This document shows, one piece after another, positions 41,803-64,000 of a DNA stretch of 64,000 nt. The notes under the pieces were generated by a model, which was given only the letters and a program-made list of their open reading frames with translations, made no database searches and was not told where the DNA came from. This stretch comes from Sulfitobacter sp. BSw21498. Lineage in GTDB: Bacteria; Pseudomonadota; Alphaproteobacteria; Rhodobacterales; Rhodobacteraceae. The DNA lies in contig NZ_CP040753.1 of the NCBI RefSeq assembly GCF_006064855.1, forward strand, positions 1,550,001 to 1,614,000. Direction: 5' to 3'. The position numbers and the translations under genes are program-made. Position 1 is the stretch's first letter. Each line of letters begins with the position of its first letter.

Positions 41803-42605
41803 AGCGGACAATTCTTAAGGAACTCTAAAGCTTCGGCGTGTATTTCGCTATTGGCTGCCGCAATTGCACGGCCGCCGTTATGAGCCGGGCCACCGTCCCA
41901 ATCCGTTACGATACCGCCCGCCGCCTGCACCACAGCAATAGGTGCTTGAATATCATAGGGTTGCAGCGAGGCTTCTATGACCAGATCGACCTGACCTGAA
42001 GCCACCAAAGCATAGGCATAGCAATCCATCCCAAAACGCGTTAGCCGCGCATGTTGTGAAACTTTGGCAAAGGCCGCACCTTCAGGGGCCGAGCCGACTT
42101 CGGGAAATGTCGTGAAAACGGTGGCTTGGGCCAAGGGCCGAGGGCTTCGCGTTTGCAAGGCGTACGCCCCCGACGGCCCCATGACCTCGGCCCGTTCGCC
42201 ATACCCTAAAAAACGCTCGCGGATATAGGGTTGGTCGATGATACCGAAAAACGGGCCGTTCGCATCGCTGAGCGCGATCAACACGCCCCAAGTGGGCGTA
42301 CCGGATACAAACCCACGGGTTCCGTCGATCGGGTCCAGTACCCAGGTTAGTCCGGAAGTTCCTTCGGTGGATCCGTATTCCTCGCCCAAAATTGCGTCGT
42401 CTGGCCGTTCGCGCTCTAGAATCTCGCGCATTGCCCGTTCGGCAGCTCGATCAGCTTCCGTAACCGGATCATAGCCAATTTGAAACTTATTGTCCGCAAG
42501 CAGATCAGGTTGTCGAAAATGGGGGAGTATTGCCGTACGCGCTGCATCAGCCAGTAGATGACCCACACGAAGTATATCGGGATCCGAATGCAAGTTCTGT
42601 ATCAT
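41799..42605 (-). CDS. hisN: Inositol-monophosphatase-family (HisN-type) histidinol-phosphatase
   Basis: A 268-residue Mg2+-dependent phosphatase of the IMPase family. FQIGYDPVTEADRAAERAMREIL, GEEYGSTEG, WVLDPIDGTRGFVSGTPTWGVLIAL and DIQAPIAVVQAAGGIVTDWDGG are its metal and phosphate motifs in order. The sequence TRGFVSG with a following TPTWG is the pattern of HisN rather than SuhB. Other histidine genes are not in the window, so the role is a family inference. ATG 42605 is used; 12 codons more are in frame. The stop overlaps the deaminase start. Confidence 0.85.
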   Translation of the reverse strand: MIQNLHSDPDILRVGHLLADAARTAILPHFRQPDLLADNKFQIGYDPVTEADRAAERAMREILERERPDDAILGEEYGSTEGTSGLTWVLDPIDGTRGFVSGTPTWGVLIALSDANGPFFGIIDQPYIRERFLGYGERAEVMGPSGAYALQTRSPRPLAQATVFTTFPEVGSAPEGAAFAKVSQHARLTRFGMDCYAYALVASGQVDLVIEASLQPYDIQAPIAVVQAAGGIVTDWDGGPAHNGGRAIAAANSEIHAEALEFLKNCPL

Positions 42606-42662
42606 GGCTACCGATCTGACACTTTCGCCAGATCCTTGCAAGATAACAGTTTGCGTTAGCGA

Positions 42663-43037
42663 TTAAGCAACATCACTCAGCACACGCGCCAATTCGAACA
42701 ACCGCCGACGCTGGTTTTCTGGGATGGCATAATAGGACCGGATGAGGTCCATCGCTTCTTTATCCCCGACCAGATCAGCAGGTATGTTTTCCAGCCCTTT
42801 CTCGGCCTGAGGTTTTTCCGCCTCTAGCCCCTCGAAGAAATGGGCCACATCGACATTCAGAGCAAAGGCAATATCCCAGAGCCTAGAGGCGCTGACGCGG
42901 TTTGCGCCTGTCTCATACTTCTGGATCTGCTGAAACTTTATGCCAACAAGCTCTGCCAGGCGCTGCTGGGTCATGCCGGTCAACCAACGGCGCTGTCGTA
43001 TCCGCTGGCCAACATGAACATCTACTTTGTGAGGCAT
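42663..43037 (-). CDS. XRE-family transcriptional regulator
   Basis: 124 residues. A helix-turn-helix covers roughly residues 8-62: VGQRIRQRRWLTGMTQQRLAELVGIKFQQIQKYETGANRVSASRLWDIAFAL is a classical Cro/C1-type domain. The remaining part has GLEAEKPQAEKGLENIPADLVGDKEAMDLIRSYYAIPENQRRRLFELAR, a helical tail often seen with this type in alphaproteobacteria. The target is unknown. It faces an 865-base stretch without a gene and is followed by hisN on the same strand. ATG 43037 is preferred; GTG 43040 would add one codon. Confidence 0.9.
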   Translation of the reverse strand: MPHKVDVHVGQRIRQRRWLTGMTQQRLAELVGIKFQQIQKYETGANRVSASRLWDIAFALNVDVAHFFEGLEAEKPQAEKGLENIPADLVGDKEAMDLIRSYYAIPENQRRRLFELARVLSDVA

Positions 43038-43040
43038 CAC

Positions 43041-43905
43041 GATCTTCTTTCTAATTCAGCGCCCATAATTTCGACGCTTGCAATTGTAGTATTGAGGAAG
43101 AGACCAATTCACGTGGTCCTTTCCGACAAAACGTGCTACTTACAAATCTCATCGCTATGCGCAAATAAAATGAAAATGGACATACGTTCAGTTATCATCT
43201 CATTTAACCGCAACACCCAATCACGCGTTGATTGAGTGAATGAATTACCCCTTATACGAGAAGTAAACCTAGCGGGCGAAATGTAGATTGCATATGATCT
43301 TGGCCAATCATGCACCTGTAGCTTTGCGGCATTCTTGGTTATTATTCCACTTCAGTGACCCTGCCCTGCTTATGCACGAAACAGATTCGGTTACATATCA
43401 ACACCGTAGCTCACCCTGCATGTGACACTTTGACATCGCACGGGTAGTACGCGGTCTTTCGCTCACAGCAAAAATTATTCGCGTCAATCGCAGTGGTAAC
43501 GAAAACGTTACAAAAAGTGCGAGAGCTGCGGTCGGCGAGAATCATCGGTTTCATAGACTGAGGATTGCACCACAAACCTTAATACATGGTGTAGGGTTAC
43601 GACATCTGCAGAAACGGCCCATCCTAATGCCGTCACACTCCCAATCTAGCGCCCGCGTTAGGCAAATGTTCACAAATGTTCTATAGACAGCATTCAGAGC
43701 ACGACAGAAGTCGCTAGGATTAATCCTTAATCGCAAGACATCGCCCAGTTGCGCGGCATTTGGCAAAGCACCGCGTCGAACTTAAGCTACCTTGCGTATT
43801 TGAGTGTGAAAGCACTTGAAAACAATGGCGTGGATGCCGATATTTGACACAATACCGAGGTCGGAAAACCGACTTTGCAACACGTCTATTATTTGGAGGA
43901 TATTC
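43041..43905. other. Intergenic region, AT-richer, no supported gene
   Basis: 865 bases with clearly more A and T than the flanks. I find no frame with normal codon use, no known RNA and no mobile-element remnant. It holds a palindrome GTAACG-AAAA-CGTTAC (43496-43511), a direct repeat CAAATGTTCA/CAAATGTTCT (43663-43682), and a 12-base palindrome AGGATTAATCCT (43716-43727). It may carry promoters for the XRE gene and for the BI-1 gene, whose RBS GGAGG is at 43895-43899. Confidence 0.6.
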
Positions 43906-44682
43906 ATGGCTGACGTGAACACAATCCGGTCCGCTGCCGGATCCCGCGCCGCCGCTATCGATGAAGGGCTGCGCACCCATATGAACAAGGTGTATGGCAC
44001 CATGTCTATCGGCATGTTGATCACCTTTGCAGCGGCTTGGGCCATCTCTGGCCTCGCTGTTACGACGGATCCCTCGGCCGCAGCGGCGCAGATCGGCCCT
44101 GACAAGTACCTGACGGCCTTAGGGGCTGCGTTGTACACGTCGCCTTTGAAATGGGTCGTGATGCTTGCTCCGCTCGCCTTTGTGTTCGGACTTAGCGCTG
44201 CGATGAACAAGATCTCGGCTGCGACTGCACAAACGCTGTTTTATGCCTTTGCTGCGGTTATGGGCGTCTCGATCAGTTCGATTTTCCTGGTCTTCACCGG
44301 ATATTCGATCATTCAGATCTTCCTCGTCACCTCTATTGCGTTCGCTAGCCTTTCGCTCTGGGGGTACACCACCAAAAAGGACATTTCTGGCTGGGGAAGC
44401 TTCCTTATTATGGGGGTGATTGGTCTGGTGGTCGCGTCGATCGTGAACATCTTCCTTGCCTCGCCTGCACTGGTCTTTGCGATTTCGGCCATTGGCGTTC
44501 TGATTTTTGCTGGTCTTACCGCTTATGACACCCAAAATATCAAGAACACCTACTTGGCCCATGCGCACCACGGCGATCAGGAGTGGCTGCAAAAATCCGG
44601 TATCATGGGTGCCCTGAGCCTATACCTGAACTTCATAAACATGTTCATGATGTTGCTGCAGCTTTTCGGCAACCGCGAGTAA
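43906..44682 (+). CDS. Bax inhibitor-1 (BI-1)/YccA family membrane protein
   Basis: A 258-residue, seven-helix membrane protein. The region RTHMNKVYGTMSIGMLITFAAAWAISGLAV starts the family domain, and SLWGYTTKKDISGWGSFLIMGVIGLVVASIVNIF and AGLTAYDTQNIKNTYL carry its conserved second half, including the acidic residues at the end. Bacterial members act as membrane proteins linked to proteolysis or calcium leak, with uncertain roles. The start ATG 43906 has GGAGGA six bases upstream. A strong terminator follows 40 bases after the stop, so it is probably a monocistronic gene. Confidence 0.92.
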   Translation: MADVNTIRSAAGSRAAAIDEGLRTHMNKVYGTMSIGMLITFAAAWAISGLAVTTDPSAAAAQIGPDKYLTALGAALYTSPLKWVVMLAPLAFVFGLSAAMNKISAATAQTLFYAFAAVMGVSISSIFLVFTGYSIIQIFLVTSIAFASLSLWGYTTKKDISGWGSFLIMGVIGLVVASIVNIFLASPALVFAISAIGVLIFAGLTAYDTQNIKNTYLAHAHHGDQEWLQKSGIMGALSLYLNFINMFMMLLQLFGNRE

Positions 44683-53396: not shown

Positions 53397-53627
53397 ATGG
53401 GTCGATTGCTAGTCATTGTCGCCACGCTGGCGCTGATTGTTGCGTTTGTCGCCATTTTGGTGACAATCGTCGCAAAGATACTGGACGCAAGCCGTCGCGC
53501 ATCGGCACCCGCGCAGGGACAGGAGATCTATCGCCCCATGGCACCGACACCGTTTCAGAAAATCACCTATGTCGCCCTGATCGTTTTGCTGTTCGGCGTG
53601 TCCACCGGCTGGCTTGGGGGGCTTTGA
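53397..53627 (+). CDS. Small membrane protein, first gene of the XpaC-TelA operon
   Basis: 76 residues from ATG 53397, with AAGGAAGG just upstream. Two transmembrane helices: LLVIVATLALIVAFVAILVTIVAKIL (N-terminus) and FQKITYVALIVLLFGVSTGWLGGL (C-terminus), with a short soluble loop between. No family is recognised. It ends three bases before the XpaC-like start, so translation is close to coupled and it is probably part of the same membrane complex. Confidence 0.78.
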   Translation: MGRLLVIVATLALIVAFVAILVTIVAKILDASRRASAPAQGQEIYRPMAPTPFQKITYVALIVLLFGVSTGWLGGL

Positions 53628-53630
53628 TCC

Positions 53631-54518
53631 ATGGCACAGCGCTTTGGCGGTAAATACAGCAATCAAGACAGCAGCGGCGACGCGTCTGCCCCGCGTGAAG
53701 CCCGTGCAAAACGCATAGAGGTTGACCCCGCAAGCGGGCGGGCAACGCTCTTGTTCATCCCCGCCATTCCGCTGGTGTTCCTGTCATTGAACGACGGCGC
53801 TCAGGGGCTTGCCCTTGGCTTGGTGGCCGCAGCGGCGTTGACCGGTGCCGCGTGGATGCTGCGCGAAGGATTAAAAGCCGAAGCCGCCTATACCGCGCGC
53901 AAAGTGGCTGAACGCCCCGCCCTGCCGCGCAAGATCATCGCCAGCCTGCTCACCGGTGCGGGTGTGGCCTTGGCTGCCTATAAAAATGATCCCGGCCTGG
54001 TGGCCCCCGTGCTGTATGGCTTGGCCGCGATGGGGCTACATGTGTCGGCCTTTGGCATCGATCCGCTGACCGCCAAAGGGATGGAAGGCGTGGACAGCTT
54101 TCAAAAAGATCGCGTCGCCCGTGTCGTGGACGAGGCCGAAAAGCACCTTGCCGCGATGAACACCGCTATTGTGCGCGCAGGCGACCGACAAGCGCGGGAC
54201 CGCCTGGCCCAGTTTCAGGACACGGCGCGCACCCTGATCCGCACTGTACAGGATGACCCGCGCGATCTGACCGGTGCCCGCAAATATTTGTCGGTCTACC
54301 TTTTGGGTGCGCGGGACGCGACGATCAAGTTCGCTGACATATATGCCAGCACAGGCGATGCGCAGGCGCGTGCCGATTATCTGGCCTTGCTGGATGATCT
54401 GGACAAAAATTTTGCCGCGCGCACCCAAAAATCGCTATTGGAAGACAAGACCGACCTGAACATCGAAATCGACGTGCTGCGCGAGCGGCTTTCCCGAGAA
54501 GGCGTGCGCCTCGATTAA
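53631..54518 (+). CDS. XpaC-like protein (5-bromo-4-chloroindolyl phosphate hydrolysis family)
   Basis: 295 residues. The N-terminal half has two hydrophobic segments (ATLLFIPAIPLVFLSLND; LVAAAALTGAAWMLREGL) and a further pair near residues 100-140. A helical cytoplasmic domain (about 150-295) follows with HLAAMNTAIVRAGDRQARDRLAQFQDTARTLIRTVQDDPRDLTGARKYLSVYLLGARDATIKFADIY. This organisation, directly before telA, is the XpaC pattern; XpaC-TelA pairs occur in tellurite and toxic-anion resistance loci. The name from phosphatase activity is historical and I do not infer a hydrolase. It is second in the operon. Confidence 0.82.
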   Translation: MAQRFGGKYSNQDSSGDASAPREARAKRIEVDPASGRATLLFIPAIPLVFLSLNDGAQGLALGLVAAAALTGAAWMLREGLKAEAAYTARKVAERPALPRKIIASLLTGAGVALAAYKNDPGLVAPVLYGLAAMGLHVSAFGIDPLTAKGMEGVDSFQKDRVARVVDEAEKHLAAMNTAIVRAGDRQARDRLAQFQDTARTLIRTVQDDPRDLTGARKYLSVYLLGARDATIKFADIYASTGDAQARADYLALLDDLDKNFAARTQKSLLEDKTDLNIEIDVLRERLSREGVRLD

Positions 54519-54555
54519 TCTGTCGCACCCGCAAGAACATAGGAATACTTGAACC

Positions 54556-55731
54556 ATGTCTGATACCGTTCGTGAAAAAGCCACCCAATCCGTAGCGCTG
54601 GTGGATGAGGTAAACGCCCAAGTGCTGGCCGACCCCGCGCCCGCGGATGCTGTCGTTTCGCTTGAAAAGGCAGATGCGCCACAATCGGCCGAGATCAAAA
54701 GCCGCATGGCAGAGATCGACATGGGCGACACGCAATCGATTATCGGTTTCGGCTCTGGTGCGCAGGCTGAGCTGCAGGAAATCAGCCAAGCGATGTTGCA
54801 AGACGTGCGGAACAAGGATGTTGGCCCCGCCGGTGACAGCCTGCGCAATATCGTGACGACCATCCGCGGTTTTTCGGTGTCGGAACTGGACGTTCGCCGT
54901 GAACGCAGCTGGTGGGAACGTCTGCTGGGTCGCGCCGCCCCCTTTGCCAAGTTCACCGCCAAGTTCGAACAGGTTCAAGGTCAGATCGACCGCGTCACGG
55001 ACGAGCTGCTGACCCATGAGCACACCCTGCTAAAGGATATCAAATCACTTGATATGCTGTATGAAAAGACGCTGCAGTTCTATGACGAACTCGCCCTTTA
55101 TATAGCAGCAGGCGAGGCCAAGCTGGCAGAGCTGGACGCGACCACCATTCCCGCCAAACAAGCGCAAGTCGATGCCGCGCCCGAGGCGGATCAAGTCATG
55201 GTCGCGCAGGAATTGCGTGACATTCGCGCCGCGCGTGACGATCTGGAGCGCCGTGTGCATGACCTCAAGCTGACCCGTCAGGTGACAATGCAGTCGCTGC
55301 CCTCTATCCGCTTGGTGCAGGAAAACGACAAGTCGCTGGTAACCAAGATTAATTCCACCCTCGTGAACACCGTGCCACTGTGGGAAACCCAGTTGGCGCA
55401 GGCGGTCACCATCCAGCGCAGCGCCGAAGCCGCCGCTGCCGTGCGCGATGCCAACGATCTGACGAATGAACTGCTGACGTCGAACGCGCAGAACTTGCGC
55501 GAAAGCAACAAGGTCATCCGCACCGAGATGGAACGCGGCGTTTTCGACATCGAAGCGGTCAAACAGGCTAACGCCGACCTGATCGGGACCATTCAGGAAT
55601 CCCTGCAAATCGCGGACGAAGGCAAAGCGCGCCGCGCCTCTGCCGAAAAAGACCTACAGGAAATGGAAGCCAATCTGCGCGACACGTTGGCCTCTGCCAA
55701 AGCGGCCAAGCCCGCACCCTCTTCGGTTTAA
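54556..55731 (+). CDS. TelA-family toxic anion resistance protein
   Basis: A 391-residue TelA/KlaA-type protein, mostly helical and soluble. The central part has TKFEQVQGQIDRVTDELLTHEHTLLKDIKSLDMLYEKTLQFYDELALYIAAGEAKL, DLKLTRQVTMQSLPSIRLVQENDKSLVTKINSTLVNTVPLWETQLAQAVTI, and a coiled-coil-like C-terminus (ADEGKARRASAEKDLQEMEANL). TelA proteins confer resistance to tellurite and some other stresses in various bacteria, by unknown mechanism. It follows the XpaC-like gene by 37 bases and is co-directional with the whole operon. Confidence 0.9.
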   Translation: MSDTVREKATQSVALVDEVNAQVLADPAPADAVVSLEKADAPQSAEIKSRMAEIDMGDTQSIIGFGSGAQAELQEISQAMLQDVRNKDVGPAGDSLRNIVTTIRGFSVSELDVRRERSWWERLLGRAAPFAKFTAKFEQVQGQIDRVTDELLTHEHTLLKDIKSLDMLYEKTLQFYDELALYIAAGEAKLAELDATTIPAKQAQVDAAPEADQVMVAQELRDIRAARDDLERRVHDLKLTRQVTMQSLPSIRLVQENDKSLVTKINSTLVNTVPLWETQLAQAVTIQRSAEAAAAVRDANDLTNELLTSNAQNLRESNKVIRTEMERGVFDIEAVKQANADLIGTIQESLQIADEGKARRASAEKDLQEMEANLRDTLASAKAAKPAPSSV

Positions 55732-55757
55732 TCCCTTTTACGCTTGGAGCGCGCGAT

Positions 55758-56717
55758 ATGGCATGGCAACGGTTAGGGCAGGCAGGATGGTTCGGCACGG
55801 TGGCAATGCTTGCCGCGCTCGCCGCCTGTACCCCGCAGCCCCCGGTTGAACCGACGCTGAAGCCCATCGCGCGCCCCGAAACGCCACCGGCCCCGCCGCC
55901 TGTGGTGGCCAAGCCGACGTCGCAAAAAAGCGCCAAGCTGCGCAGCTATTTGCATCAGGTTCAGCAGGCGCAGCTTAGCCAAGGCCTTTTGCGACGTGAT
56001 GGTGGCGGGCAGGATACCCCTTTTTCTGCCGGTATGCTGGTGCGCAACTTTGAACAAATCGCCTTTTACAACGAATACAATGCCACCCTGACCGGCCGTG
56101 GGGACAAATCCCCGATGCGTCGCTGGGAACGCCCCGTGCGGATGGAGGTGGTTTTCGGCGACGGCGTACCCCCGTCTGAACGCGCGCGTGACGAGGCTTC
56201 TATCAAAGATTACGCCGCCCGTCTGGCCGCGACGACGCAGCATTCCGTCTCAGTCGGGGGGAAACCGAACTTTATGGTGATCGTCGCCGGCGAGGACGAC
56301 CGGTCCGATGCTCTGGCCCTCGCAGCCAAGCGCATCCCCGGTGTCACTGCCGAAAGCCTTGCCGCGCTCAGCGATCTGCGCCGCGATACCTATTGCGTCG
56401 TCGCAGCCTATGCCGGGGGTGCGGACCCCAACATCTATACTGCTGCCGTGGCCGTGATCCGGGCAGAAAACCCGTCACTTATGCGGCTGTCGTGCATCCA
56501 CGAAGAGCTCGCGCAGGGGCTTGGCCTTGCCAATGACAGCCCCACCGCACGCCCGTCGATCTTCAACGATGACGACGAATTCGCGCTGCTGACCCGCCAT
56601 GACGAGCTTTTGCTCAAGATGCTTTATGATCCTCGCTTGCATGCTGGCATGACCGCCGAAGAGGCCACCCCCGTCGCTCGCGAGATCGCAAATGAAATAC
56701 TTGGCGGGCCCGTTTAA
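55758..56717 (+). CDS. DUF2927-type lipoprotein
   Basis: 319 residues. The signal peptide ends with lipobox LAAC (Cys24); a proline-rich linker (residues 25-60) follows. The domain has IAFYNEYN..., VRMEVVFGDGVPPSERARDEAS and CIHEELAQGLGLANDSPTARPSIFNDDDEFALLTRHDELLLKMLYDPRLHAGM. HEELAQGLGL looks like a degenerate zinc-protease helix with Glu after His and a second Gly-Leu in place of His. This order is what I associate with DUF2927. It is the only exported protein of the operon and lies between telA and the SPFH gene, so it may sense or contact the envelope side. Confidence 0.78.
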   Translation: MAWQRLGQAGWFGTVAMLAALAACTPQPPVEPTLKPIARPETPPAPPPVVAKPTSQKSAKLRSYLHQVQQAQLSQGLLRRDGGGQDTPFSAGMLVRNFEQIAFYNEYNATLTGRGDKSPMRRWERPVRMEVVFGDGVPPSERARDEASIKDYAARLAATTQHSVSVGGKPNFMVIVAGEDDRSDALALAAKRIPGVTAESLAALSDLRRDTYCVVAAYAGGADPNIYTAAVAVIRAENPSLMRLSCIHEELAQGLGLANDSPTARPSIFNDDDEFALLTRHDELLLKMLYDPRLHAGMTAEEATPVAREIANEILGGPV

Positions 56718-56750
56718 CCCGCCTCCGACTTCCCCCGAAAGGACCAAGAC

Positions 56751-57875
56751 ATGGGTATTCTCGATTTTCTCTCTGGCCAATTCATCGACGTTATCCACTG
56801 GACCGATGACACCCGCGATACGATGGTGTCGCGGTTCGAACGCGAGGGCCACGAGATCAAATACGGGGCCAAGCTGACCGTCCGCGAGGGTCAAGCTGCG
56901 GTGTTCGTCCACGAAGGCCAGCTGGCCGATGTGTTTACGCCCGGGCTTTATATGCTTGAAACCAACAACATGCCGATCATGACATCGTTGCAGCACTGGG
57001 ACCACGGCTTTAAAAGCCCCTTCAAATCCGAGATTTATTTCGTTAACACCACGCGTTTCAACGATCTGAAATGGGGCACCAAGAACCCGATCATCGTGCG
57101 CGACCCCGAATTTGGCCCCGTGCGCCTACGGTCCTATGGCACCTACTCTGTCAAAGTGTCGGACCCTGCGCGGTTCCTCACCGAAATTGTCGGCACCGAC
57201 GGCGAATTCACCATGGACGAGATCAGCTATCAGATCCGCAACATCATTGTGCAGGAATTTTCGCGCAGCATCGCGTTGTCGAATATTCCGGTGATGGATA
57301 TGGCCGCCAATACCCGCGAACTGGGCAAACTGGTGAGCACTGAAATCTCGGCTACTATTGCAGAATACGGCCTGACCATCCCCGAGATTTATATTGAAAA
57401 CGTCTCGCTTCCCCCTGCCGTAGAAGAGGTGATGGACAAGCGATCCTCGATGGGTGTGATCGGGGATCTTAACAAGTTCACCCAGTTTCAGGCCGCCGAA
57501 GCCCTGGGCCGCGAGGGTGCTGCCGGTGCCGCCCTGCAAACCGGCCTTGGGGCTGGGTTGGGGATGCAGATGGGTCAGGCTGCCGCCGCGCAGGCAGGCC
57601 CGTGGGGCCCCCGCCCCGCTGCCGCGGCCCCTGCCTCCCACACTCCTCCCCCGCCGCCTCAGCCCGACAAGGTCTGGCATCTGGCCGAAAACGGCCAAAC
57701 CAAGGGCCCGTTTTCCAAGGCCGCCTTGGGGCGCATGGCTGCCGATGGCGGGCTGAAACGCGAAACCTATGTCTGGACACCGGGTCAGGATGGCTGGCTG
57801 AAAGCTGACGACGTGGCAGAACTGGCGCAGCTCTTTACAGTGCTGCCGCCCCCGCCGCCGCCCGCCGGTGCATAA
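56751..57875 (+). CDS. SPFH-domain protein with C-terminal GYF_2 domain
   Basis: 374 residues. An SPFH (band-7-like) domain covers about residues 20-230, of the virion-core/YdjI-like subgroup: GAKLTVREGQAAVFVHEGQLADVFTPGLYML, FKSEIYFVNTTRFNDLKWGTKNPI and ISYQIRNIIVQEFSRSIALSNIPVMDMAAN. A Gly/Ala/Gln-rich linker (255-305) leads to a C-terminal domain WHLAENGQTKGPFSKAALGRMAADGGLKRETYVWTPGQDGWLKADD, matching GYF_2. In Bacillus, YdjI-type SPFH proteins work with PspA in membrane-stress response; the GYF part may bind a proline-rich partner. The nearest is the proline-rich lipoprotein linker next door, on the other side of the membrane, so the partner is unknown. Confidence 0.86.
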   Translation: MGILDFLSGQFIDVIHWTDDTRDTMVSRFEREGHEIKYGAKLTVREGQAAVFVHEGQLADVFTPGLYMLETNNMPIMTSLQHWDHGFKSPFKSEIYFVNTTRFNDLKWGTKNPIIVRDPEFGPVRLRSYGTYSVKVSDPARFLTEIVGTDGEFTMDEISYQIRNIIVQEFSRSIALSNIPVMDMAANTRELGKLVSTEISATIAEYGLTIPEIYIENVSLPPAVEEVMDKRSSMGVIGDLNKFTQFQAAEALGREGAAGAALQTGLGAGLGMQMGQAAAAQAGPWGPRPAAAAPASHTPPPPPQPDKVWHLAENGQTKGPFSKAALGRMAADGGLKRETYVWTPGQDGWLKADDVAELAQLFTVLPPPPPPAGA

Positions 57876-57917
57876 AGCGGTTTGAAACTCAGATGGGGCG
57901 GCCCACGTGTCTAGGCT

Positions 57918-58472
57918 ATGATCACACCCCGCCGCCCCTTGTTGCCCCACCGGCGCACCCTGATGAAACTGTTACATTGGGGCATGGTGCCCCTGTTCGT
58001 CTGGTTCTTGCTGGTGCAGCCGTCCGACGTGGCGCGGATCGGGCCTGCGGCGGTGCGGTTTCATTCTGCCATGGGACTTGTCTTTGTCAGTGCGGCGCTC
58101 CTGTGGTGGGTCCACTATATGCGACGTGGATTACTGGGCCGCCCCGGCCCCAAACTGACAGGCTGGGCCCGCTGGCTGCATCCTGTGCTGCATAAAACCC
58201 TGATCTGGGGTATCTTGGGTGTCGCGCTCACGGGGCTCATGATCGGGATTACATCTACTGTTCAGCTATGGGCCGGGGGCATTGTCCCGATTGCCGTACC
58301 GCTTGACCTGCCGCGTGCCAACGACTGGGTCGGCCTGATCCATAGTATCGAATTTTACGCCCTTGCAGGCATCGCGCTCGCCCATGCAGGGTTTCACATC
58401 TGGCGCCACATTCATCTGCGCGACAACGCCTTGCGCATAATGGCCCCCAAGCTGCTGCACCGTTTTTTGTAG
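57918..58472 (+). CDS. Cytochrome b561-type membrane protein
   Basis: About 184 residues with four transmembrane helices: LLHWGMVPLFVWFLLVQP, HSAMGLVFVSAALLWWVHYM, LIWGILGVALTGLMIGI and LIHSIEFYALAGIALAHAGFHIWRHIHL. The histidines His20, His49, His66 and those in the last helix resemble the paired haem ligands of the cytochrome b561/b6 domain, so a membrane haem-b electron carrier is likely. ATG 57963 is an alternative start 15 codons in. It lies within the XpaC-TelA operon, 42 bases from the SPFH gene, which suggests an electron-transfer or redox-sensing part of that system. Confidence 0.82.
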   Translation: MITPRRPLLPHRRTLMKLLHWGMVPLFVWFLLVQPSDVARIGPAAVRFHSAMGLVFVSAALLWWVHYMRRGLLGRPGPKLTGWARWLHPVLHKTLIWGILGVALTGLMIGITSTVQLWAGGIVPIAVPLDLPRANDWVGLIHSIEFYALAGIALAHAGFHIWRHIHLRDNALRIMAPKLLHRFL

Positions 58473-58538
58473 CCCCGCTCTGGTCGCAGCCTGCCCGGTG
58501 CCCTATGTCTGGTGCAGGCCTGACCAAAGGACAGCTCT

Positions 58539-59669
58539 ATGCCCGCCAGCACCGGCTTTGACGACCCCGCCCTCCCTCCGACGCCAAGCGAGGAACACCG
58601 TTTCCCCTGCGATACCTGCGGATCCGATCTGCGGTTTGATCCCGAAAGATATATGCTGGTCTGCGACCACTGCGGCAATACCGAGGAAATCTCGGGTGCG
58701 CACGGTGTGCATAGCCCCATCGCCGAGCTCGATTTTCAAGCCGCCCTCGCCAGCGCGCTCCCCCAATCCCAAATGGAGGAAACCCGCGTTACCACCTGCC
58801 CCAACTGCGCGGCGCAAGTGGAATTTGACCCCGGCAAACACGCGACGGAGTGCCCGTTCTGCGCGACGCCTGTGGTGATCGACACCGGCCTGAACCGCCA
58901 CATTAAACCCCGCGCTGTACTGCCCTTCGGCCTGACCGAAAATACCGCACGCGATGCCATGACAGACTGGCTTGGCAGCCTTTGGTTTGCCCCCAACGGC
59001 TTGCAAGAATACGCGCGCAAGGGCCGCAAGATGCAGGGGATCTATGTGCCCTACTGGACCTATGACGCCGACACCCGATCCAGCTATTCCGGCGAGAGGG
59101 GGACGGTCTATTACGTTACCCAAACCGTGATGCGCGACGGCAAGCGCGTGCAGCAGCAGGTGCCCAAAATCCGCTGGCGGGCGACCTCGGGTCGTGTGGC
59201 GCGTTTCTTTGACGATGTGCTGGTGCTGGCGTCAACGTCGCTTCCGAAACGGTTTACCGATGCACTGGCTCCGTGGGATCTGGCGGCGCTGGAACCCTAT
59301 GCACCGGAATACCTCGCAGGGTTTCGCGCCGAAGCCTATGCGGTGACGCTTGACGAAGGCTATGCGCAGGCCCGCGAGGTCATGGACGGAATGATCCAGC
59401 GCGACGTGCGTTTTGACATTGGTGGCGACCGCCAGCGCATCCACAATATCCAGACGCAGGTCAGTGATGTGACGTTCAAGCATATCCTGCTGCCGGTCTG
59501 GCTGGCGGCCTATAAATACCGCGGCAAGACCTATCGTTTTGTCGTCAACGGCCGCACCGGCAGTGTTCAGGGGGAACGCCCCTACTCCACCGTCAAGATC
59601 ACCTTTGCGGTGATCCTCGGCCTGATTGTCGCCGGGATCGTCGGATATTTTATGGCGCTGCAAAAATGA
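58539..59669 (+). CDS. Membrane protein with two zinc ribbons (YdjG/TFIIB-ribbon type)
   Basis: 376 residues. Two four-cysteine ribbons stand at the N-terminus: Cys24/27/42/45 (FPCDTCGSDLRFDPERYMLVCDHCG) and Cys87/90/105/108 (CPNCAAQVEFDPGKHATECPFC). A long beta-rich soluble part with MQGIYVPYWTYDADTRSSYSGERGTVYY follows, then FKHILLPVWLAAYKYRGKTYRFVVNGRTG, and a single C-terminal membrane helix (about 352-372). Databases often label such proteins replication-factor-Y-like; nothing here supports a helicase. It overlaps the nitroreductase gene by four bases, closing the operon core. Confidence 0.86.
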   Translation: MPASTGFDDPALPPTPSEEHRFPCDTCGSDLRFDPERYMLVCDHCGNTEEISGAHGVHSPIAELDFQAALASALPQSQMEETRVTTCPNCAAQVEFDPGKHATECPFCATPVVIDTGLNRHIKPRAVLPFGLTENTARDAMTDWLGSLWFAPNGLQEYARKGRKMQGIYVPYWTYDADTRSSYSGERGTVYYVTQTVMRDGKRVQQQVPKIRWRATSGRVARFFDDVLVLASTSLPKRFTDALAPWDLAALEPYAPEYLAGFRAEAYAVTLDEGYAQAREVMDGMIQRDVRFDIGGDRQRIHNIQTQVSDVTFKHILLPVWLAAYKYRGKTYRFVVNGRTGSVQGERPYSTVKITFAVILGLIVAGIVGYFMALQK

Positions 59670-60340
59670 CCCAGATCGATACGTTCACCGATATTCTAAA
59701 GGCGCGATCGTCCTGCCGTGCTTTCCGCCCCGATCCGGTCGATGACGCGGTGATCACGCGCATCGTCGAAACCGCCCGCCATGTGCCGTCGTGGTGCAAT
59801 GCGCAGCCGTGGCAGCTGACCGTCACCAAAGGGGCCGCGACCGACCGCTTCCGCGACGCGCTGGCGCAAGAGATCGCCAAGGGGACACCCCCCGCCGCCG
59901 ATCTCGATTGGCCCGCATCCTACAGTGGCGTTTACGGCGATCGGCGGCGGGCCTGCGGTTTCCAGCTCTATGACGCGGTTGGCATCGACAAGGCAGACCG
60001 CGCAGGCCGCGCTGCGCAGATGATGCGGAACTATGCGCTGTTTGACGCGCCGCATGTGGCGATTGTGACCTCTCCGGCAGAGCTCGGGGCATATGGCGCG
60101 CTGGACAGCGGCGGCTTTGTCACCGCCTTTACGCTGGCTGCCACAGCGCTTGGCGTTGCCACCATCGCCCAAGCCGCCATCGCCGCCTATGCGCCCACCG
60201 TGCGTAACCATTTCGGCCTGCCCCAAGACCGTCTGATCCTCTGCGCGATCTCTTTTGGCTATGCAGACGAAGCAGCTCCGATCAACCGGTTCCGCACGCA
60301 GCGGGCCAGGCCCGCCGACATTATCGACTGGAAGGCCTGA
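59666..60340 (+). CDS. Nitroreductase family protein
   Basis: A 224-residue FMN-dependent nitroreductase. The start [43 protein letters not shown] is the FMN-binding N-terminus, and the sequence [41 protein letters not shown] the conserved C-terminal part. It reduces nitro compounds, quinones or related substrates with NAD(P)H. Its start overlaps the zinc-ribbon gene by four bases (ATGA), so it is translated from the same transcript. Confidence 0.9.
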
Positions 60341-60848: not shown

Positions 60849-62039
60849 CTACGGCTCGCGAAACGCCTCTTTAGATTTATAAAGCGGCTTTAACAGATAC
60901 TGCAAAACCGTCTTTGACCCTGTGTGCAGCTCGACGCTCGCCTGCATCCCCGGGCGGATCTGCAAAGACGCCTGTCGTGGGGTGAGGTGTTCAGTATCCA
61001 CCTGCAACGTCACCTTATAATGCGGATCGCCATCCGCCGCACGGGACCGTTCGTCCTTGAACGTATCAGCTGAGATCAGTTTGACCGTCCCCTTAAGGGT
61101 CCCGTAAATCGTGTAGTCATAGGCCGACAGCTTGACCGTCGCCTCTTGCCCCGGACGCACACCAGCGATGTTTTCTGGCTTGACGCGGGCCTCTACGAAC
61201 AGCTCTTCGTCCAGCGGGATGATCTGCAAGATCTCCTCGCCCGGACGCACGACGCCGCCGATGGTGGTCACACTCAGGTTGTTGACGATGCCGCGCAGCG
61301 GGCTGACCAGCACGGTCCGGTTCAACTGGTCGGTGCTCGCCTTGAGGTTCTGTTTCAGCGTCGCCAGCTCTTTCAGAACGTCCGAATATTCCTGCGCGCG
61401 GTCCAGCTCTGTGCCGGTGACGATCTCGTCCAGTTTGATCCGTGCATCTGCATGGGCCTTGCGTGCACGCGTGACCTCGATCAGTGATACGATCTTTTTC
61501 TTGAGCATATTTTCAAGCAGCTCACGCTCTTTCGTGGCCTCGGTCAGCACCCGCCCCGCCCCCTCAGAGCGCGAAACGAAATCCGATTGCCGCGCCTTCA
61601 GCAACGTGCGCTCCGAGGCGACGATATCAGGGGTGCGCGTGCTATAGACGTCGGGCACGTCAAAGTCGTATTGCCCCGCCAGCTCTGCCTCCAGCCGCAG
61701 GCGGCGGATTTCAAAGGCGCTGATCTGATCGCGCAGATCATCCACCGAGGACTGGAACTGCGTGCCGTGCAACCGTGCCAACACGTCGCCCTTTTCCACG
61801 TGATCGCCCTCGCCCACGGCAAGCTCGGCCAGAATGCCACCTTCGAGGTTCTGGATAATCTGTGGCCGCGAGCTGGAAATCATCGACCCTTCGGCGCGCA
61901 CGATTTCATCGACCCACGCAAAAGCGGCCCACAGCAAAAACACCAGCACCGATGCGCCGCAGAGCCAGATCACTATGGAAGGCCCGCGCATCTGCCCCGT
62001 CATCTGCGCCCCCAGCGGCGTGGTGCTGACAGAGTTCAT
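60849..62039 (-). CDS. HlyD-family type I secretion adaptor
   Basis: A 396-residue membrane fusion protein. One N-terminal transmembrane helix (VIWLCGASVLVFLLWAAFAW, residues 24-43) is followed by a lipoyl-like motif (ILAELAVGEGDHVEKGDVLARLHGTQFQSS), a long coiled coil, and the beta-barrel region SPLRGIVNNLSVTTIGGVVRPGEEILQIIP. The C-terminus has the periplasmic end ASLQIRPGMQASVELHTGSKTVLQYLLKPLYKS. It links the ABC transporter to the outer-membrane channel. Its start overlaps the ABC gene stop by four bases (ATGA). The substrate and the TolC-like partner are not in the window. Confidence 0.94.
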   Translation of the reverse strand: MNSVSTTPLGAQMTGQMRGPSIVIWLCGASVLVFLLWAAFAWVDEIVRAEGSMISSSRPQIIQNLEGGILAELAVGEGDHVEKGDVLARLHGTQFQSSVDDLRDQISAFEIRRLRLEAELAGQYDFDVPDVYSTRTPDIVASERTLLKARQSDFVSRSEGAGRVLTEATKERELLENMLKKKIVSLIEVTRARKAHADARIKLDEIVTGTELDRAQEYSDVLKELATLKQNLKASTDQLNRTVLVSPLRGIVNNLSVTTIGGVVRPGEEILQIIPLDEELFVEARVKPENIAGVRPGQEATVKLSAYDYTIYGTLKGTVKLISADTFKDERSRAADGDPHYKVTLQVDTEHLTPRQASLQIRPGMQASVELHTGSKTVLQYLLKPLYKSKEAFREP

Positions 62040-64000
62040 GCGACATGCCCCTTCTGACCCGCCAGATGGGCGAGCACTTTTTCTTTTGGCCCGTCAACGG
62101 TCATACGGCCATCTTGGAGCACCAGCGTACGTTCTGTCAGTGCAAGGATCGGCGCACGGTGCGTCGCGATGATCGCGGTGCGCCCTGCCATCCAGTCTTG
62201 CAACCGCGAAACCAGTGTCGCTTCCAGTCGTTGGTCCAGCGCAGCCGTCGGTTCATCCAGCAGGCAGATCGCCGGATCCTGCAACCACAGACGCGCCCAA
62301 CCAATAGATTGCCGCTGTCCGATAGACAGGCCCGCGCCCGCGTCCTTGATCTCTAGGTCCAGACCCTTGTGGTGGTTGCGCACAAACGGCCCCAGACCCG
62401 CGAAATCAAGCGCGGCGTGCAGGCGGTCATCGTCACGCTCCAGCATGGTGAGGTTCAGGTTGTCGCGCAGCGTGCCCGAGAACAAGCGCACGTCCTGACC
62501 CAGATAGCCGATCAGCCGGCGCAGGTCGCGCGGCTCGATCTGGCCCAGCTCTGTGCCGTCAATCAAGATGCGCCCTTCGGTCGGGGCATAGAGCCCGCTG
62601 AGCATTTTCAGCAGCGTCGATTTACCCGACCCGTTGGCCCCGAGCACGGCAACATGCTGCCCCGGCTGGATCAGTATCGCTTTGATATCAACCGTCGGTG
62701 CGCCGTCGTCCTCATAGCGGAACATCACATCGCGCAGCTCGAACTGGCCTTTCAACTTTTCGCGCCGCAGATAGGTGCGCGCCTCGGCGGTGTCCTGCGG
62801 TGCGGCGACAATCGCGTCGAGCCCGTCCAGCGCGCCTTTGACATTGCCCCACCGCGCCATCGTACCCGAAAGCTGCGTCAGCGGCCCCAGCGTCCGGCCC
62901 GTCAGGATACCGACCGCGATAATGGACCCCACGGTGAATTCACCCGCAAACACCAGATAAGTGCCCACAATCACCGCGGCAACATAGGTAGCCTGCTGGA
63001 CCCCTTGGCTCCAAAACGTGAGGAACGACGCCAGCTTGCGTTGCTCTGAGGATTTAACCGACGACAAGGTGTTCAGCTCGGTCCACAGACGCAGCACGCG
63101 GTCCTCTGCCCGCTGAGTCTTGACCGTATCCAGCTCGAATATCGCCTCGTGCAGCAGCCGCGAGGATTTAGTCGACGCCCCTTGGGTTTCCTGCGTCAAC
63201 TGGATCGCTTTCTTTTGCAGAAAGAACCCCGGCACCAGCATCAAGATCCCGCCAAGCACCAGCACCCAAACCACATTGCCCGCGATGCTGGCGACGAGGA
63301 ACAGGAAGACGAAAATAAACGGGATATCCGCGATCGTGCCAATGGTCGACGCAGTAAAGAATTCGCGCACCGACCCGAATTCACGCATTGCGGAAAACAG
63401 CTGGTTGGGCGCTTGGCCGCGCGCGTCCGACCGCATGCCCAGCAACCGGCGCATCAAGACGTCTTGCACCGACAGTTCGATCTGCCGCCCTGCCCCGTCC
63501 ATCAACCGCGCCCGCGCCATCTTGAGGAAGGCCTCCATCAACAGCGCGAGGCCTGCACCGGCGGCGAGCACCCATAGCGTCGCTTCGGACTGGTGCGGGA
63601 TCACGCGGTCATAGACCTGCAACGAAAACAGCGCCACGGCGACAGCCAGCAGGTTCGCCACAAACGACCCCGTTGCGACCTCTATCAGCTGGCGACGAAA
63701 ACGCGGGAATTGCCCCCAGAACCAATGCGCAGGCGCACCGTCGGTTTTATGGGTTTCCGCCACTGTCTTCAGCGAGGCTTCGGCGCGCAGCACCAAACCT
63801 GCAAAGAAGGGTTTGAAATCGCTGATCGGCACCATCGCGCGGTTGTCGGTGCAGGTGGTATCATAGAGGATCAGATCGCCGCGCTGCTGGCCCATCACCA
63901 ACAGCACCTGCCCCGATGTCATATAGGCCAAGGCCGGCCACATATCTTTCGAAATGCCCTGCACGCGGCTGACCTGAGTGACCAGCCCTGCTGTTTCCAT
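62036..64000 (-). CDS. Type I secretion ABC transporter (permease/ATPase), 5' end cut by window
   Basis: At least 654 residues. A degenerate peptidase-like N-terminus (LVTQVSRVQGISKDMWPALAYM, with no catalytic Cys visible in this part) is followed by six transmembrane helices. The ATPase then has ANGSGKST (Walker A), LSIGQRQSIGWARLWL (signature) and AICLLDEPTAALD (Walker B). This is the LapB/RTX-toxin exporter type with a C39-like domain. The first codon seen (Met at 64000) matches an internal residue: homologues run some 60-80 residues longer, so the gene begins outside the window. It is followed by the HlyD adaptor gene. Confidence 0.93.
   Translation of the reverse strand: METAGLVTQVSRVQGISKDMWPALAYMTSGQVLLVMGQQRGDLILYDTTCTDNRAMVPISDFKPFFAGLVLRAEASLKTVAETHKTDGAPAHWFWGQFPRFRRQLIEVATGSFVANLLAVAVALFSLQVYDRVIPHQSEATLWVLAAGAGLALLMEAFLKMARARLMDGAGRQIELSVQDVLMRRLLGMRSDARGQAPNQLFSAMREFGSVREFFTASTIGTIADIPFIFVFLFLVASIAGNVVWVLVLGGILMLVPGFFLQKKAIQLTQETQGASTKSSRLLHEAIFELDTVKTQRAEDRVLRLWTELNTLSSVKSSEQRKLASFLTFWSQGVQQATYVAAVIVGTYLVFAGEFTVGSIIAVGILTGRTLGPLTQLSGTMARWGNVKGALDGLDAIVAAPQDTAEARTYLRREKLKGQFELRDVMFRYEDDGAPTVDIKAILIQPGQHVAVLGANGSGKSTLLKMLSGLYAPTEGRILIDGTELGQIEPRDLRRLIGYLGQDVRLFSGTLRDNLNLTMLERDDDRLHAALDFAGLGPFVRNHHKGLDLEIKDAGAGLSIGQRQSIGWARLWLQDPAICLLDEPTAALDQRLEATLVSRLQDWMAGRTAIIATHRAPILALTERTLVLQDGRMTVDGPKEKVLAHLAGQKGHVA

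Follow-up and report, generated by a model that had tools for sequence, protein, structure and literature searches.

An operon joining XpaC and TelA to an SPFH/GYF protein and a double zinc-ribbon protein in Rhodobacteraceae: a candidate inner-membrane scaffold for envelope maintenance

The alphaproteobacterium Sulfitobacter sp. BSw21498 carries, in a stretch of 64,000 nucleotides of contig NZ_CP040753.1 (hereafter, the window), a run of seven plus-strand genes at 53397..59669, which encodes an XpaC-like membrane protein, TelA, an SPFH protein with a C-terminal GYF domain and a double zinc-ribbon protein, together with a small membrane protein, a DUF2927 lipoprotein and a cytochrome b561-like protein. 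Comparison with other genomes showed that this operon is no local accident: its core is XpaC-TelA-SPFH/GYF-zinc ribbon, to which DUF2927 is a usual addition in Rhodobacteraceae. By analogy with Bacillus, the core products probably form an inner-membrane scaffold for envelope maintenance, a reading to which we assign a probability somewhat above one half (roughly 0.55). Each module is already known; what is new is their joining with a GYF-tailed SPFH protein and the constancy of this arrangement across a family mostly lacking PspA. We know of no mechanism for TelA or XpaC, the annotation of which rests on side phenotypes. By linking both proteins to an SPFH scaffold with a zinc-ribbon membrane partner, the operon gives them a concrete, testable role.

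The first half of the core consists of xpaC (53631..54518, +; 295 residues; PF10112, 86.5 bits against a cut-off of 29.8), the product of which has hydrophobic segments in the first half according to hydropathy, and telA (54556..55731, +; 391 residues; PF05816, 352.9 bits), the product of which has no hydrophobic segment and is predicted to be all-helical with long helices (predicted local distance difference test score of the structure model, 72.8). The second half consists of the SPFH gene (56751..57875, +; 374 residues) and the double zinc-ribbon gene (58539..59669, +; 376 residues). The SPFH protein, also free of hydrophobic segments, combines a Band_7_1 domain of the YdjI family (PF13421, 329.4 bits; cut-off, 24) with a C-terminal GYF_2 domain (PF14237, 72.9 bits). 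A search of solved structures by sequence likewise identified its tail as a GYF domain; for TelA and for the zinc-ribbon protein, it gave no convincing match. The latter protein contains two ribbons followed by a single hydrophobic segment at its C-terminal end, and no curated family of Pfam or NCBIfam exceeded its cut-off. Seven of its eight zinc-ribbon cysteines are invariant among 14 aligned sequences (that of the window and 13 relatives), and C42 is present in 13 of the 14. Among its listed relatives, primosomal protein N' and RNA polymerase subunit are frequent names, for which the sequence gives no support. The intergenic gaps of the seven genes are 3, 37, 26, 33, 42 and 66 bases, and the open reading frame coordinates and Pfam matches bore out the domains and the compact same-strand arrangement described in the original prediction, which had been made from the letters of the window.

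Linkage of the two halves was examined in a genome-search group of 196 genomes (f1), the named relatives in which are Rhodobacteraceae and which is called the family below. TelA matched in 194 and SPFH in 192 of the 196. Two genomes (G011 and G106) had neither match, and two others (G081 and G085) had a TelA match without SPFH, that of G085 being weak, as was the SPFH match of G185. The window's own genome (3.24 Mb) has one match of each. Each search listed 150 places, and 131 genomes were common to both lists: in 129 of these, the SPFH gene follows telA on the same strand at a distance of less than 3 kb (141–2651 bases; median, 1049), and in the remaining two the genes are on different contigs. 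In G020 and G023, gaps of only 157 and 141 bases leave no room for DUF2927. More detailed neighborhoods were taken from the best 80 named loci by SPFH similarity (71–99% identical; that of Sulfitobacter litoralis, 99%), so that these counts describe close relatives. All 71 loci that could be evaluated upstream have XpaC, TelA and DUF2927 no more than 5 kb ahead of SPFH in the same orientation; of the 75 evaluable downstream, 74 have the zinc-ribbon gene after SPFH on that strand, within 300 bases in 23 and at a maximum of 6.4 kb. Protein searches with TelA and the zinc-ribbon protein, for which the best 120 of 7,013 to 8,000 matches each were taken, returned mostly close relatives. The genes that the original prediction had treated as a unit are thus kept together in related genomes rather than scattered.

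The arrangement is not limited to this family. A class sample of 142 genomes gave a TelA match in 12 and an SPFH match in 9, in 7 of which the match exceeded the GYF tail. Five genomes of the latter kind lie outside the family, and four of them (G325, G251, G258 and G311), belonging to four families, carry XpaC-TelA-SPFH/GYF-zinc ribbon in a single block; in the fifth (G207), TelA and SPFH are apart. The sequence stretches around the four blocks gave no match to DUF2927, rluB, the nitroreductase or dtd. In G258, the contig ends approximately 130 bases upstream of xpaC, the genome is 68% complete, and a second TelA has an internal stop. In a phylum sample of 249 genomes, each half was found as a pair: of 27 genomes with SPFH and the zinc ribbon, 24 have the two together (13 of 14 outside the family). 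XpaC over the cut-off and TelA both occur in 19, of which 17 have them no more than 3 kb apart on a single strand, in varying order. TelA and SPFH are together in 13 of the 19 genomes with both, all 13 within the family. Given that XpaC-TelA and SPFH-zinc ribbon are separate elsewhere in the phylum sample, the core consists of two modules that were joined in several alphaproteobacterial families. A related arrangement occurs in another family (G522, a 2-Mb genome; L223:4826-9314), where XpaC-TelA is followed by a GYF_2 protein (38.7 bits; cut-off, 25.8) whose Band_7_1 score is below the cut-off (17.8 vs 24); no SPFH match reached the threshold there, and a lytic transglycosylase gene also lies on the same strand.

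TelA was also encountered on plasmids and on contigs classed as viral. Of 12 TelA-carrying contigs with a viral classification (L239–L248), some of them near-duplicates, 10 have an XpaC-like frame immediately ahead of TelA, and no SPFH or zinc-ribbon match was found within approximately 4 kb on each side. Distant TelA relatives on plasmids, mostly from Acinetobacter and Enterobacterales, are less than 60% identical in 589 of 595 records, and 549 of the 595 are predicted to be conjugative.

The function of the core can be approached by comparison with Bacillus subtilis, in which the PF13421 search also finds matches and whose YdjI we take to be a member of this family. The membership of the window's SPFH protein in the YdjI family, the YdjG-like layout of the zinc-ribbon protein and the lack of a PspA match in the genome together support the YdjI/YdjG comparison drawn in the original prediction. 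The sigma-W regulon of B. subtilis includes both pspA-ydjGHI and xpaC-yaaN, each as an operon of its own (PMC3498285). PspA depends on YdjI, YdjG and YdjH for its place at the membrane, with connections among these proteins seen in two-hybrid tests (PMC8581546). In YdjG, two zinc ribbons precede a domain related to YpeB, with a membrane segment after it (PMC11237479). Like pspA-ydjGHI, the window operon encodes an SPFH (Band 7) protein together with a two-zinc-ribbon membrane protein, the likeness of the latter to YdjG being one of layout (two ribbons and a C-terminal segment). Unlike pspA-ydjGHI, it has TelA and XpaC, not PspA and the TPM protein YdjH, and none of its seven proteins matches a TPM family at E <= 0.1. 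Furthermore, the tail of the window's SPFH protein is GYF_2, whereas the Bacillus protein is reported to have a zinc ribbon (under the name YdjL in the source), and DUF2927 and b561 are additions relative to the Bacillus operon. With regard to the other module, the XpaC-like gene is directly upstream of telA as in B. subtilis xpaC-yaaN and Listeria lmo1966-lmo1967, which the sources list as xpaC and telA alone, without SPFH or a zinc ribbon. Conversely, plasmids of Vibrio, Comamonas and Tsukamurella carry SPFH-zinc ribbon pairs in the same two-gene order as the window (matched and aligned for Vibrio and Tsukamurella, by annotation only for Comamonas), and no TelA or XpaC match or annotation was found in the fetched stretches around them. 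TelA is also represented in the bacterial group of the window by Rhodobacter sphaeroides telA, cited as a tellurite-resistance locus (PMC6955997).

The author of the original prediction knew of no described system with this exact set of genes, and we found none among the titles and abstract beginnings listed (in two of the lists, 20 of 93 and 20 of 92 papers). A 2012 survey of Ter systems reportedly discusses TelA and XpaC, so that the pairing may have been mentioned earlier. The main text of two papers on phage-shock-protein (PSP) evolution, PMC11237479 among them, contains no mention of TelA or XpaC, and none of the papers searched mentions DUF2927.

SPFH proteins oligomerize at membranes and often serve as scaffolds, and GYF domains bind proline-rich peptides. 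In the proposed arrangement, XpaC would hold the helical TelA at the cytoplasmic face of the inner membrane, while the zinc-ribbon protein, through its single C-terminal membrane segment, would anchor the soluble SPFH/GYF protein, which would oligomerize into a scaffold under the membrane. The two halves may meet in one complex, perhaps via the GYF domain, and this complex would keep the inner membrane intact under envelope stress, the job of PspA with YdjI and YdjG in Bacillus. The DUF2927 lipoprotein would sit on the outer face of the membrane as an addition specific to the family, and b561 would be a minority accessory. Since both module types belong to the sigma-W regulon of Bacillus (PMC3498285), we counted this analogy in favor of the envelope-stress reading, together with the nisin sensitivity cited for a Listeria telA disruption (PMC12791056; details below).

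If the core does the work of PspA with YdjI and YdjG, the distribution of PspA itself becomes relevant. PspA (PF04012, E <= 1e-5) had no match in the whole genome of the window. Among 100 family genomes, PF04012 matched in 21 and was without a match in 79 (that of the window included), and the same search gave matches in 9 of 14 control genomes, including that of the alphaproteobacterium Caulobacter. The sampled family is therefore mostly, though not entirely, without a recognizable PspA, and the operon suggests how a large family, most sampled members of which have no PspA match, may guard its inner membrane. A bolder proposal, which we hold tentatively and consider clearly less probable than the scaffold itself, is that TelA, held by XpaC, replaces PspA as the working partner of the SPFH/zinc-ribbon platform and provides PspA-independent membrane protection in nearly all Rhodobacteraceae; under the same doubtful odds, a helical TelA unrelated to the ESCRT-III-like protein would have taken over its place. 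If true, TelA, so far best known as a resistance determinant, would have a general role in the cell.

Several observations weigh against these proposals. The presence of PspA in 21 of the 100 family genomes argues against a strict replacement. A kinship of TelA with PspA and ESCRT-III gained no support: hhalign gave a probability of 2.7% in a comparison with an alignment of seven PspA-family proteins from the window's family, the TelA model matched generic helical proteins only, with no specific fold match, and no PspA, Vipp1 or ESCRT-III chain was among the matches listed (50 in each of two fold lists, which may have missed one). The PspA-like place that the original prediction had given to TelA fits as a genomic place, and homology and fold lent it no support. 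In addition, TelA and SPFH are together in none of the six phylum-sample genomes outside the family that have both, of which G397 has a weak SPFH match and some have fragmented assemblies. Within the family, roughly 200 kb separate the XpaC match of G006 from the rest of the set, the zinc-ribbon genes of G007 and G009 are in another part of the genome, and no XpaC was recognized on a Paracoccus plasmid locus (L205) whose annotation gives TelA, DUF2927, SPFH and zinc ribbon consecutively. In an SPFH tree of 29 rows, the TelA-linked proteins cluster and the label needs three changes, which is compatible with one joining or several. Finally, the literature yielded no experiment on this operon.

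Among other explanations, the one that survives best, at distinctly less than even odds, is that the operon encodes a constitutive scaffold that, like HflKC or flotillins, serves the assembly or quality control of membrane proteins, with no stress trigger and with TelA and XpaC as structural parts. The near-universal presence of TelA and SPFH in the family (194 and 192 of 196) looks housekeeping, the scaffold role often ascribed to SPFH proteins would fit as well, no regulatory gene was recognized in the operon by a Pfam scan, and the promoter scan stayed at chance level. This explanation is, however, at odds with the placement of both module types in a Bacillus stress regulon (PMC3498285) and with the sensitivity to an envelope-active agent cited for a Listeria telA disruption, which is reported to raise sensitivity 4-fold to nisin and 2-fold to tellurite (PMC12791056).

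The same Listeria result, in which nisin is affected more than tellurite (PMC12791056), speaks against an operon for resistance to tellurite or other toxic anions, in which b561 and the nitroreductase encoded next to the zinc-ribbon gene would carry out reductive detoxification. TelA is named for tellurite, R. sphaeroides telA is listed as a tellurite locus (PMC6955997), and b561 and nitroreductase are redox proteins. However, 21 of 75 loci contain b561, the nitroreductase gene is a close neighbor of the zinc-ribbon gene (300 bases or less) in 45 of 73 relatives that could be evaluated, and presence in almost all family genomes is at odds with selection by a rare anion, so that we consider this explanation improbable. 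Less probable still is gene order kept by common descent without shared function. The flanking rluB and dtd genes are also often present in the fetched family loci (61 and 58 of 80, respectively), but four other families have the four-gene core without flank matches (one contig ends near xpaC), which indicates more than inherited gene order, and in the phylum sample each pair is also found by itself. A system for anti-phage defense or conflict that uses SPFH as its membrane platform, to which a Vibrio plasmid SPFH-zinc ribbon pair lying approximately 3 kb from a TIR-domain gene (opposite strand, one gene between) might point, is very improbable, as near-universal family presence is unlike that of defense genes; a defense system was also rejected by PADLOC, the models of which matched none of the seven operon proteins (E <= 0.01).

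The remaining genes of the operon differ in their constancy. The DUF2927 gene (55758..56717, +; 319 residues; PF11150, 207.7 bits) lies between telA and the SPFH gene, and its product reads as having a lipoprotein-type signal at the N-terminus that ends in LAAC. The cytochrome b561-like membrane protein (57918..58472, +; 184 residues) has a marginal match (PF01292, 30.8 bits vs a cut-off of 30.1); its histidines H49, H88, H92 and H142 are present in 22 of 22 aligned sequences, and H20, H156 and H160 in 21 of 22. Its gene lies between SPFH and the zinc ribbon in the 21 of 75 loci mentioned above, which ruled out b561 as a core part and with it the core redox input envisaged in the original prediction; a redox role would be accessory at most. 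In some loci, the gap between SPFH and the zinc ribbon is filled by other proteins, e.g., RidA-like and SnoaL-like proteins (ten frames scanned).

Gene 1 (53397..53627, +) encodes a small membrane protein of 76 residues as called, with two hydrophobic segments by hydropathy. As called, it agrees with the two-helix protein originally described; its conserved core, however, is the last 29 residues from an internal ATG at 53538, which contain one hydrophobic helix and end in GWLGGL. The survey covered 54 of 74 xpaC loci, in which a frame with a glycine-rich tail was found upstream, the other 20 falling outside the filter. The stop-to-stop open frame is shorter than 60 residues in 33 of these 54 relatives, and is therefore too short there for the 76-residue form. 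An ATG giving 25–40 residues is present in 48 of the 54 frames, and gives 29 residues in 14 of 18 listed. The gene was recognized upstream in 55 of 71 evaluable family loci, and the conserved form of its product resembles a membrane peptide with a single helix. Directly 5' of xpaC, the peptide frame at 53538-53627 is easy for annotation to miss. In the four other families, a simple scan did not find the short peptide ahead of xpaC; in one of them, it covered approximately 130 bases only.

Upstream of the operon, rluB ends 97 bases before gene 1. Downstream, a nitroreductase-family gene (59666..60340, +) overlaps the stop of the zinc-ribbon gene by 4 bases, dtd is next, and the nitroreductase gene is perhaps on the same transcript as the operon. 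The seven genes thus stand as originally placed, whereas the run continues past 59669. Pattern scans for promoters and terminators gave numbers at chance level only. Elsewhere in the window, frames resembling a type I secretion adaptor and an ABC transporter were noted by eye on the minus strand at 60849-64000. The region 42001-44000 has a GC content of 0.512, compared with approximately 0.60 in its surroundings, and contains a short frame resembling a regulator, as well as approximately 0.5 kb in which no frame reaches 120 residues.

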